This document shows, piece by piece, positions 54 through 13,684 of a stretch of 64,000 nt of DNA. The DNA comes from Aotearoamyces nothofagi (Eukaryota; Ascomycota; Leotiomycetes; Leotiales; Tympanidaceae). A model generated the notes under the pieces. That model was not told the DNA's origin. It worked only from the letters and a program-made list of their open reading frames with translations, and made no database searches. The stretch covers positions 1 to 64,000 of the forward strand of contig JADDTR010000015.1 in assembly GCA_015345905.1 (NCBI GenBank), written 5' to 3'. The first letter of the stretch is position 1. Every line of letters begins with the position of its first letter. Both the position numbers and the translations under genes were made by a program.

Positions 54-260
54 GTGAATTCAGCAATAATTGTATTCTAATATATTGCTAATATATTACC
101 AGCTCTTAACCCAGCCTTTTACTACAACAATCTCTTAGAACTCCTGTAACAGTAGAATCTGAGGAGGATATTAAGATGAGAAGAAGTATAGCTAAAGAGC
201 AACTGTAAGCTCTCCAGTTATAGAATGATAAACAGGAGCTTAAAATCCAGCAACTATAAG
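54..260 (+). pseudogene. Degraded coding fragment, possibly transposase tail
   Basis: An intron-like segment at 54-102 starts with GT and ends in CCAG, and its second half matches the AATATATT intron family seen on the other strand. After it, one frame reads a basic and acidic stretch with a Gln/Leu-rich, coiled-coil-like end, interrupted by several stops of the kind C-to-T mutation makes. The charged, Pro/Thr-containing tail is reminiscent of the C-terminus of fungal pogo-like DDE transposases. That is only a resemblance, because no catalytic region is inside the window. The fragment starts off the left edge and is broken several times over. Confidence 0.3.
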
Positions 261-487: not shown

Positions 488-1584
488 CTGTTGTATAATA
501 CATTTCTAATATATTAAGAATCTATTGTACTAGCAATCATCTCATCTAGTTCAGTATCCAACTTAGCCTCTTTATCTATCTTATTACTACTCTTCTGTCT
601 ATTCTACTACTCAACCTCATCATCTGTAAACAAGTTGTAAAGTTCACAAATACCCTGATCACTAGGGCAGCCTATAATATATTAGCAATGCATTAAGAAT
701 ATATTATATAACTTACAGCTTTTGGCAGAAATATAAGAAGTACAGGAATTGAACTTCTTAGACTTGCCAGGAATACCAAAGGCATTAATGACAACAGCCT
801 TGTATTTGAGAGCAGCTTTGTTGGACTGTAATATATTAGCAATATATTAGGAATATATTACCCGACTTACTATATTATCTTTCTTACAAGGTAAGAAAGG
901 GCAGCAAATCTTAGGAGGAGGCTTGGTACAAGGCTTAGTAGAAGTGGCAAGTTTGACTGTAATATATTAGTAATATATTTGTAATGTATTTAGAATATAT
1001 TACCAGGAGTGATAATATCACCTTCAGATTCGATATATCCAGTATCAAAGGCATCATGATTGTATATAATCTTTTTATAAAACTCTGTAATATATTAGTA
1101 ATAGATTAGTAATGTATTAGAATACTTACTACAAGCCAAGTATAGTTCTTCTATACTGACTATACCCTTCTGAAGCTCTACAAGCTCAATATTACTACTA
1201 TTGTACTTATAACCCTTTATATACATTTGTAGATTGCCGATGTAGAAGTAGCATTTCTGGTAATATATTAGTAATACATTAGCAATATATTATATATTTA
1301 AACTTACCGTTGTAGAATATATTTCCCTATCTTCATCAACAAAGTGGTAGAAAAGCTCTCCAGTATAGATTACAATAGTGCTATTGTCCTAATGTATTAG
1401 TAATACATTAGCTTGTTTTATAAGGTGAAGGTAAAGGTGAGGATAAAGGTGAAAGTAAAAGTGAACTTACATTTTGCTGAAATCTATAGATTCTATATAG
1501 CCGGGTCTCAAGTACAGTATAGTACTAGTAGTCCTTCTATCAATGTATTAGCAATATATTAGCAATAGACAAGTAATACATTAC
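488..1584 (-). repeat. Family of near-identical short introns (introner-like)
   Basis: Minus-strand introns at 672-716, 826-870, 957-1003, 1085-1129, 1257-1307, 1389-1470 and 1537-1584, with a weaker one at 488-530, resemble each other along most of their length. The plan is a GTAAGT-type donor, a variable spacer, then two or three copies of a unit close to AATATATTGCTA, ending in TATTACAG, TTAG or TATAG. Four are 45 or 47 nt long. Each repeated unit contains CTAAT or CTAAC, so the repeats multiply candidate branch sites. Unrelated introns of one gene do not normally share sequence. Copying of a mobile intron (introner-like elements are known in several Dothideomycetes) is the simplest explanation. 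The first and last copies are the least certain as real introns. Confidence 0.6.
607..1524 (-). CDS. Unrecognised multi-exon protein, 5' end unresolved
   Basis: Seven exons on the minus strand (1471-1524, 1308-1388, 1130-1256, 1004-1084, 871-956, 717-825, 607-671) join in phase into a 200-residue open frame ending in TAG. Each junction has GT/AG borders, mostly GTAAGT at the donor. No family is recognised. The N-terminal half is rich in Tyr, Ile and Phe (for example TGELFYHFVDED and CYFYIGNLQMY). The C-terminal half has two Cys clusters (KPCTKPPPKICCPFLPCKK and SCCPSDQGIC) that could bind metal. The 5' end is unresolved: no convincing ATG is in frame, and the next segment upstream (1525-1536, and 1585-1682 with a Gln/His-rich repeat) either contains a stop or needs a different acceptor. 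Beyond the final TAG the frame is soon open again, and a further intron candidate lies at 488-530, so the ancestral protein was probably longer. It may be an expressed gene, a relic, or transposon cargo. Confidence 0.5.
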
Positions 1585-5937: not shown

Positions 5938-7608
5938 CTTGGCGACGTTCGTCAGACCTCTGACGCTGTAGACAAGTTCAGATAAAGGACCTGGGAGACT
6001 GAGAGAAGATCCAAAAACTCCAAGCTAGCTGAGTAATGCCCCAATGGCATGTGGGTAGGAGGTCTCCGAAGGTCGAGGTCTTGGAGATGGTCGGAACCGC
6101 ACGCAAGGACAGGGCAGGCCCAGGCAAAGGAGGGTTTCCGAGTGCTGCTTGCATTGACATTCATTGACAATCCCATTTTGAGATGAGAGAGTCCTCCTTC
6201 CTTACACCTGCATCAGGTCAGGATGCCTGCCGGACATGCCACATTATCGCTGCGTAGAAGGATTCGATCCGCAATGGCACCCCTCCGACTGAGCAGCGAC
6301 GCTGTTGCCATCGCAGGACGAAGTGTACTCTGCCAGCGATAGTACAGTATAGATGTAGGGTACGTACTTCCCTGCAATTGACAGGCGACAGCAGCGTATG
6401 TGCCCTCTATCATTGCAAGAATAGTGAATGTTGTCGGAGGGTTGTCCATCGGAGGGTTGTCCAGCGCAGGGTTGGCGGTAGTTGTCTCCGCCCACGCTGC
6501 CAGTGATCCGTTCTGTGCTGTAGCGTGCTGTAGCGCCGTGGACGGGGCGGATAGTGGCCGCAGGCTGTCAAGTCTGCATGTTTAGGGTGTGGTGGCTGTT
6601 GGTACAGGGGCCGGTCCACTGCAACTCCACTGTAACTCCACTGTCGGTCCACTGTAACTCCACTGCAACTCCACTGCAACTCCGCTGCAACTCCACTGCA
6701 GCTCCGCTATCCCTCAGGGGCCGGGCGCTGCCTGTCTTTCCTCTCCGGGGAAGCGGAAACACTGCAGCCAAGGGCTGTCCTGGTTCGAAATAGAGAGTCG
6801 CGTCGCTACGGAAATCCACCGGCGGGGCTGGAGCCCACTGCATACCATGCCCACCACGCCCAGGAGCCCTTGTCCTTCACAGGTACAGTACCTGGACAGT
6901 TCCTGTCACGGCGTATCTGCCCGCATTGATACAAGCAGCCGTGCAGTGGTTAAACCCTCCTTGCTCTTCAGTTGACGAGAACTCCAAGCCGTGCCGACTC
7001 CAGGGTCCAGGGTCCAGGGCCCGTCGTGTCTGTCTCCCCTGTTCCCGTGAGGTACCGTTCGATACGGATACTGCATTGTCCTATAAAATGCTCCCGTCCA
7101 TTGTGGTATATCTGATCTTCACTATTGCTTCTCCTTATGTGATATCTGATTCTCTTGGGATTTCCATGCTCGGCGCAATCCCCAGAAACAGCATGGCTTA
7201 CGTGCATTGCCTGCCGGCTAGTCTCTGATGCTGCACAGAAGTCTCACATTTTCCATATTCTCATCTGCACGAATATTGCAGGATGCTCAGCACGTGCATG
7301 AGCAGCAGAGAACCCGGACAACATGTGCGAGCTCGAGGAACGTGTTCACGGAGCCATGTCGCTGGATCCCGGTACCTCTGCCTCTTATGGCCGTTCCTGG
7401 CTTGATATTCGTTGACATTCAGCATCCAGTCGGTCCTTAGGCCTTCCTACTATTGCACTCCTCCCTTTTAGCATCCTCCTTGACACGTTCTTTTTCTTTT
7501 CACCTGCTTCTTCCAAACGTCTTGTCTTTCCAGAATCTTTTCTTTTGGAGAACAGACACCTCCTTTGTAACGCAAACCCCTGTGATTCTCCCTGTCACGA
7601 ACGTCAAG
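5938..7608. other. Intergenic between divergent P450 and transporter
   Basis: About 1.7 kb separates the two start codons and so must hold both promoters. It contains an 11-bp minisatellite (6612-6710) and no open frame with recognisable protein features. The pyrimidine-rich stretch at about 7440-7600 just before the transporter ATG is typical of a fungal core promoter or 5' leader. Confidence 0.5.
6612..6710. repeat. 11-bp minisatellite, unit near ACTCCACTGCA
   Basis: Roughly nine copies of an 11-bp unit close to ACTCCACTGCA or ACTCCACTGTA, with scattered substitutions and one slightly irregular unit. It lies between the divergent promoters of the P450 and the sugar-type transporter. Confidence 0.8.
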
Positions 7609-11877: not shown

Positions 11878-13684
11878 TCAATATCTGTACAGCCTCTTCG
11901 CCGCAACGCCCTCTCCTCCTCGCCTTATGATCTGTGAATTCAAGCGTCGATAATATACCGCAAGCATTAAGCAGCCCGCAGCAACAAAAAACAGCATTCC
12001 AGCATTCGTCCAGTGGCCCGTTGGGTACCCTTTCTTCGCTTCATCAGCCTTGTAGATCCAGACGCCTGTGATTTGTCCCGGCGCGCCGAAAGATATGTTC
12101 AGAGCAATGGCAAGCCCGGCTGCGGCCGTGGAGTGCGTGTTTGCGGACAGCCAGCCGAGGAGAGGCGGGATGCACGAGAATGCTCCGCAGCAGGCGACGA
12201 TGAGGCAGCCGTAGCGTTCCTAATGTTTGGTTAGCGGTTGGAAGCTACGGAGGTGACGTAGTAAGTGTACAGAGTAGGAAGATGCAGGAAGGAGAGCAGA
12301 GGCCATGAAACCAATGGCTCCGATCGTGGCGAAGATGGCGGAATGGAGAGCGCGAGCATTGAAATGGTCAGCCGACCATGATACCAGTATCGTAACAACG
12401 TCTTTATTGGTGTTAGTGATGGGAAATAGGGGTTTGGCTTGAGATCTTCTTACATGCGGCAGCGTATGGCGGAACGGTCATTAGTTGAGCTTCCAGGTTC
12501 TTGAATCCGAGACCAGCAGTAATGCTGGGTGCAAAAAGTGACAGTGAAGAGAATGGGACAGAGATACCGAAGTAGATCTATCTCCAGTGTTAGCCTCGTA
12601 TCTTCACAGTCGGGTTTTGCTAATGGCATACGGCATAGTGGGCATAGAGTCGCCAATCGGTCAGAGTCTCCTTGGCCTCAGCCCATGTGAGACTCCTCCC
12701 GTGGCTATGAGATCCTTCCAAGCGCAACCGCTCAGTAGCGAGAGCTTTCTCTTCCACAGACAGCCATTCTACAGTCTCTGGATAATCAGGTAGGAAAAAG
12801 AACACCAAAATCGAGGATGCACAGCTCGGGATACCTTCCAGGATAAACAGCCATCTCCACGCAGCTAGACCGTGTGTGCCATCCATGTGGCCAATGGCAT
12901 ATGCGAGCGCTCCACCAAACGCTCCTGCTAGAGTTGCCGAAGCAAGAATCAATGCCACGCGTATCGACCTCTCGTCCGTTCGGTACCAGAACGTCAGGTA
13001 GTACACCAGCCCGGGGAAGAGGCCGGCTTCAAAGACACCGAGCAGAAACCGAACTGCAGTGACGGCGCCGTAAGAATGAACGCCTCCAAGCCCCATGGTC
13101 AGCGCACCCCAGGAGAACATCAGAAACGCGATCCATTTGCTCGGGCTAACTTTCTTCAGGAAATAGTTGGACGGGACTTCGAATATGGCGTATGCAATCA
13201 GGAAGACCATCAATGCGATGCTGCTGAGCTTAGACATAGTTTAAATCACACAGATGGAGAGGCTTACGTGTACTGAAAGGACGTCATTCCAGTCTGTGTC
13301 AGAAGATCATGCCCTGCATCTGCATTGAGAGTTTTTGCATTGCCTAACATCGAGTCAGCTCCCTTATAGAAACATTGAGCTCCCAGTCTCTCTCACCAAT
13401 ATTTGATCTATCGAGGTAACACAGCAAGTAAATCCCAGCACTGATTGGAACGATACGAAGGTCTTGCTTCCAGACAAGCGCTCTCGCAGCGACGGTACCT
13501 TTCTGTGAATCAAGCTCTCCACTCTTGTTTCCAGCCTATATTGCACTAGTCAATATCGTCCTATAAGGGTTTATAAGATGCTTTCACGAACCTCATTTTC
13601 ACCGCTATCTTTCTCCGAGTAGATTGGTTTTGCAGCCTTGGAGAGTGACTCCACGTCGGAGGAGCTGGAAACGGTGTCTGCCAT
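11878..13684 (-). CDS. MFS transporter, anion:cation symporter (Dal5-like)
   Basis: Plasma-membrane uptake carrier of the family that includes yeast Dal5 (allantoate) and Tna1 (nicotinate); these take up organic anions and vitamins with protons. Exons on the minus strand are 13592-13684, 13397-13535, 13268-13343, 12632-13223, 12454-12577, 12271-12401 and 11878-12219, giving 498 aa. Family marks are YLLCYLDRSNIGNAKT in helix 1, FEVPSNYFLKK after helix 2, RFLLGVFEAGLFPGLVYYLT, and a C-terminal half opening with the conserved DWRLYAHYAIYFG. About 12 helices are present. The cytosolic N-terminus (about 45 residues) is Ser/acid-rich. The substrate is not determinable. The next gene on the same strand is the AtuA protein, 735 bp upstream. 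Confidence 0.88.

Follow-up and report, generated by a model that had tools for sequence, protein, structure and literature searches.

Sequence-similar, introner-like candidate introns with a repeated branch-site unit in one putative gene of the fungus Aotearoamyces nothofagi

How new introns originate has long been an unanswered question, and few examples retain copies that can be recognised. Introner-like elements, the original paper on which is reportedly that of van der Burgt in 2012, are thought to spread as whole-intron copies into new gene sites. For fungi, an RNA-based route has been proposed, in which an excised intron enters another transcript and is reverse-transcribed and recombined in. 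A gene with visibly related introns built on a branch-site repeat would offer a direct test of whole-intron copying against the growth of spliceable repeats, and we describe here such a candidate from A. nothofagi (Leotiomycetes).

The closest systems described are also from fungi. In the Dothideomycetes Fulvia fulva and Dothistroma septosporum, introner-like elements are sequence-similar canonical introns, sometimes with more than one per gene (PMC4457414), as are the candidates here. The four genes of that report have two each whereas, at this locus, up to eight lie within ~1.1 kb of one gene. They also differ from the Dothideomycetes elements in being mostly 43-51 nt, the short end of the putative introns in the DNA analysed, and in carrying 11-nt branch-site units. 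Introner-like elements have been described with stable structure (PMC9024468), and unusual folding is seen here in only two of eight copies. Ascomycete introner families are reported (PMC9860276) to be without target-site duplications (TSDs) or TIRs, and the candidates match them in having no evident TSD. The sister stwintrons and derived canonical introns of Hypoxylaceae and Xylariaceae (PMC8469720, PMC12403724) are likewise multiplied, similar introns with internal symmetry and no flanking duplications reported. The published examples include a stwintron of 207 nt and a derived intron of 93 nt, and their ancestor had terminal inverted repeats of 45-55 nt, whereas each copy here is a much shorter, single unit. 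A stwintron structure was rejected for the single GT-AG units of 43-51 nt, which would not accommodate two nested introns. In Cryptococcus neoformans, the gene CNN00420 likewise contains several introns that look alike; the gained ones are exactly identical to three others in the gene (PMC2395259), whereas those here have diverged and the intervening exons are nearly unrelated. In the openly licensed literature searched, no recognisable description of introns with 11-nt branch units was found, and the letters of the unit gave one match, a paper on a fish gene. The introns described here probably form a new family within a kind already known, set apart by their small size, their repeated branch-site unit and their packing in one gene.

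The DNA analysed (the window) is the first 64,000 nt of contig JADDTR010000015.1 (GCA_015345905.1). Its G+C content is 0.25-0.32 in the first 1.5 kb and 0.50 from 2 kb on. A preliminary description of the sequence had placed at 488-1584 at least six, perhaps eight, minus-strand introns of 45-51 nt with the same body. Eight minus-strand GT-AG segments do occur there, seven of them 43-51 nt long, but i1 has 82 nt and shares only its 3' end with the others. The plus-strand candidate at 54-102 and the array at ~337-393 were not part of that description. The features are as follows, with i0 to i7 and p1 designating the copies.

54-102, plus strand: candidate intron p1, 49 nt, GTGAAT...CTAATATATTGCTAATATATTACCAG, inside a broken plus-strand reading frame
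~337-393, strand ambiguous (16.4 bits plus, 11.6 bits minus): another array built of the unit, with neither convincing splice sites nor a frame
488-530, minus strand: candidate intron i7, 43 nt, the weakest copy, GTACAA donor, without a strict CTAAY
531-1388, minus strand: putative coding part, exons 1388-1308, 1256-1130, 1084-1004, 956-871, 825-717 and 671-531, separated by i2-i6
672-716, minus strand: predicted intron i6, 45 nt (divisible by three), phase 1, retention giving an in-frame stop
826-870, minus strand: predicted intron i5, 45 nt (divisible by three), phase 0, retention giving an in-frame stop
957-1003, minus strand: predicted intron i4, 47 nt, phase 1, frame kept only if removed
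1085-1129, minus strand: predicted intron i3, 45 nt (divisible by three), phase 1, with three CTAAY units, retention giving an in-frame stop
1257-1307, minus strand: predicted intron i2, 51 nt (divisible by three), phase 0, retention giving an in-frame stop
1389-1470, minus strand: candidate intron i1, 82 nt, motif only at the 3' end (CTAATGTATTACTAATACATTAG), borders without support from the frame
1471-1536, minus strand: exon between i0 and i1, with an in-frame TAG and no clear frame by codon-position composition
1537-1584, minus strand: candidate intron i0, 48 nt, GTAATG...CTAATATATTGCTAATACATTGATAG, preceding the secure coding part

The phases of i1-i7 are mixed (0,0,1,1,0,1,1). Three candidates, i0, i1 and i7, fall outside the secure part of the gene, and i7 may instead sit beyond the gene end. 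Within i1, the 5' part contains a 12-nt tandem repeat, AAGGTGAAGGTA in plus-strand letters, at 1422-1465.

Removal of i2-i6 leaves 182 open codons followed by TAG TAG and then by 24 further in-frame codons within the last exon. Judged by their sequence, the six exons look coding in one frame: the six-exon frame assignment ranks first of 243 by codon-position base composition, with stops unused, and in a leave-one-out comparison the model frame beats the two other same-strand frames in all six exons. Against the three reverse-strand frames, the model frame is best in four of the six, with a reverse frame scoring higher in exons 1256-1130 and 956-871, by 0.6 and 1.8, respectively. Because i2, i3, i5 and i6 are multiples of three, the frame agrees across them whether they are spliced or not, and the case for their removal is therefore made by in-frame stops, splice signals and the AT-rich repeat body; i4 is the sole member of i2-i6 whose removal the frame requires. 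If retained, each of i2-i7 would introduce an in-frame stop (6 of 6 examined). The exons also carry in-frame TAGs, two in the last and one apiece in the two that precede i1, and no in-frame ATG was seen upstream; the gene may be in decay or wrongly delimited. When the spliced protein and the plus-strand fragments were compared with Pfam, all matches were far below cut-off (PF13059, E 0.24-0.26; PF03847, E 0.066), and a search of solved structures gave no match up to E 10. A protein scan of viral contigs gave 13 stretches that fit a pattern, none of which was confirmed. The intron pattern was not found in viral and prokaryote contigs, an absence that says little since those collections are not aimed at fungi.

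The likeness of the introns was evaluated as the mean pairwise local score of i0, i2-i7 and p1, with i1 left out and the first 6 and last 3 bases of each trimmed. These eight interiors score 37.2, compared with 18.3 (s.d. 0.84, maximum 21.5) for 300 dinucleotide-shuffled sets (z 22.6), and i2-i6 alone score 45.2 compared with 20.5 (maximum 24.4) for dinucleotide shuffles. As controls, 14 non-overlapping putative introns elsewhere in the window were selected by a donor/branch/acceptor pattern and by joining frames with 60 or more open codons on either side, a rule that leaves out genes with short exons and under which some of the 14 are probably false. The controls score 12.0 compared with 11.8 (z 1.3), a score reached by 25 of 200 shuffled sets, and none of the 14 contains CTAATATATT; the earlier description likewise saw the motif in none of the other introns that it had placed in the window. 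That the exons between the copies share nothing holds in practice but not exactly, as the seven exons between i0 and i7 score 16.52 with a shuffle mean of 14.88 (100 sets, maximum 16.48), far under the intron likeness yet slightly above chance. Information also drops at the intron borders, from a mean of 0.93 bits in the last 22 intron bases to 0.30 in the next 20 exon bases and, on the 5' side, from 0.90 bits in the first 20 intron bases to 0.32 before them, although the splice signals themselves account for part of this drop.

The GT/YAG ends, the shared unit, the fall in likeness at the splice sites and the single frame across i2-i6 all argue that these are related introns. With the shared body, the border drop, the stops in i2-i7 and one frame over six exons, the earlier claim of related introns within one gene appears sound, as far as sequence can tell. 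Provided that the candidates are introns, they are sequence-similar introns at non-homologous positions, the pattern by which introners are recognised. Duplication of an intron-exon unit was rejected because the exons are nearly unrelated and the phases mixed.

The copies have in common a near-palindromic unit of 11 nt (CTAATATATTR, with small variations), mostly repeated before the 3' YAG. A repeat period of 12 nt had been given for it, but the period measured is 11 nt, and Tandem Repeats Finder places head-to-tail arrays of this period, a feature of tandem repeat-expansion introns, at 830-860 in i5, 959-1002 in i4, 1087-1124 in i3 and 1260-1292 in i2. Parsed by eye, the unit nearest the 3' YAG is CTAATATATTA in six of the nine copies (i2-i6 and p1), and the unit nearest the 3' splice site is CTAATACATTG in i0, CTAATACATTA in i1 and GAAATGTATTA in i7. 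Only the CTAAT part of the unit is a branch signal, yet all 11 nt agree in six of nine copies, and the 3' parts of the introns likely had a shared ancestor. When all units were included in a test of register, 26 of 5000 permutations reached the observed value, with the signal coming from the unit nearest the 3' splice site; units 2 and 3 alone, available from six introns, have no register (observed value reached by 32 of 64 permutations).

A CTAAY-type branch site begins 12-15 nt from the 3' end in eight of the nine copies. Several candidate branch points per intron had been claimed, and this is correct for the six copies with at least two strict CTAAY sequences but not for i4 and i6, with one each, or for i7, with none. 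Two such sequences are present in 2 of the 14 control introns. The extra sites could matter for splicing. Of the eight copies folded (i0, i2-i7 and p1), i4 (z -4.2) and i5 (z -3.0) fold better than shuffled sequences, with the remaining six at -1.4 to +0.1 and four control introns at -0.9 to +0.8.

Beyond the minus-strand gene, the window contains one candidate copy, p1, in the broken plus-strand frame. A profile built from i0 and i2-i7 and searched against both strands had no match at E 1 or better outside 1-1600 (best E 3.3; the seven source introns match by construction), and so detected no further copy in the window's other 62.4 kb. The 3' end of p1 resembles that of i2, with CTAATATATTACCAG in both, before the two diverge, and once its 49 nt are taken out, a plus-strand frame is joined that, TAA and TAG stops aside, reads well. 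The profile score of p1 is 18.5 bits on the plus and 9.0 bits on the minus strand; however, as the unit is near-palindromic, antisense matches of the minus-strand copies (best 9.5-19.0 bits) can score as high, and p1 is a candidate only. In the surrounding plus-strand region, 1-330, the reading frame is broken by several TAA/TAG stops and has a tail rich in Gln and Lys. The region resembles a decayed gene, which might have belonged to a mobile element, but it matched no Pfam family; the Gln-rich tail might suggest a pogo/Fot1-like origin, which no search supports.

The flanks of the nine copies give no clear sign of insertion by a DNA transposon. In-register repeats of 1-3 nt occur at all nine, as expected from 2000 pairs drawn at random within the block, and the exonic flank repeats are 0-1 nt in eight of the nine and 3 nt (GCT) at i6; of 5000 random pairs, 163 have a flank repeat of at least 3 nt. 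As no TSD stands out among the nine copies, DNA transposition that duplicates its target site was rejected.

Our preferred reading, to which we give close to an even chance, is that these are homologous, introner-like spliceosomal introns, descended from one ancestral intron copied whole, in an AT-rich and partly decayed block. The ancestral intron would have been copied to new gene sites within this block, in the minus-strand gene and perhaps also in a plus-strand gene, and probably already had the repeated branch unit, which would have provided each copy with spare branch sites. The minus-strand gene itself would probably be in decay, as its in-frame TAGs suggest. As there are no clear target-site duplications, the RNA-based route would fit better than cut-and-paste transposition. 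The orientation of p1 with its own reading frame gives copying some added support. Copying of a mobile intron, as first suggested for this locus, is plausible and is aided by this copy in another frame, but the internal units lack register and no insertion footprint stands out; whole-intron copying is favoured, not proven. In a variant that we consider unlikely, the copies would constitute a minimal introner of a new class, with a body that consists entirely of a near-palindromic branch-site unit in a few tandem copies, which would supply redundant branch points. Any nearby GT and AG would make such an element spliceable, and, being able to act on either strand, it could seed introns of both orientations in an AT-rich compartment.

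The lack of register among units beyond the 3'-most keeps repeat expansion at branch sites as a rival to copying, and tandem repeats were the alternative already named in the preliminary description. The introns would then be old and would not have relocated, their branch regions having been overwritten in place by an 11-nt CTAATATATTR repeat that expanded through slippage or spread through gene conversion among the introns of this block, which we regard as possible but distinctly less probable. The head-to-tail arrays inside four introns are consistent with overwriting, as are the array at 337-393, outside any intron model, and i1, an otherwise different 82-nt intron with its 3' end alone in common, and DNA repeat expansion has been published for the look-alike introns of the Cryptococcus gene (PMC2395259). 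Overwriting accounts less well for one unit common to the introns, instead of one unit each, for the three of nine copies that are exactly 45 nt and for the GTAAGT donors of five of the nine. It is very unlikely, in our estimate, that the segments are not introns but an AT-rich satellite, scattered through non-coding or pseudogene sequence, that happens to have GT and AG close to its ends. Near-palindromic AT-rich repeats, in-frame stops and the lack of any homologue found would suit a satellite, and four of i2-i6 are multiples of three, at which the frame test is blind to splicing; but the composition is coding-like, with the top-ranked frame running across six exons, i4 must be removed to maintain it, an in-frame stop lies in each of i2-i7 and the likeness drops at GT and AG.

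A transposon or repeated gene family might, alternatively, have carried the introns from copy to copy, in which case their likeness would be old and internal to the element and no mobile intron would be needed. This we find decidedly unlikely. The profile matches do end at the edge of the AT-rich block, TAA/TAG stops occur in frame in both reading frames and GC-rich GGTCAGCCGA repeats adjoin the block, but no transposase family was matched in Pfam, and a carrier by itself leaves the likeness among introns of one gene unexplained. RIP in the AT-rich block is only suggested, by dinucleotide indices of which 1-500 and 1001-1500 pass both thresholds. The signal is, however, weak, with the pooled exons (1.24; 1.08) and 501-1000 passing one threshold only and 9 of 246 windows elsewhere passing both.

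The GC-rich direct repeats with core GGTCAGCCGA are located at 1685-1786, in four copies of one orientation. Exact single copies are also present at 12366 and 28976, and the reverse orientation has no exact copy. Genes elsewhere in the window encode a Mto1/centrosomin-like protein, APC1, a Sec7-PH protein and a sugar transporter, and the putative introns there are mostly ~50 nt with GTAAGT and CTAAY-type signals, features that suggest a filamentous ascomycete. Rfam, at gathering scores, had no match in the whole window. Another tandem repeat of 11-nt period, TCCACTGCAAC, is present at 6615-6705 in 8.3 copies, with letters that differ from those of the intron unit.
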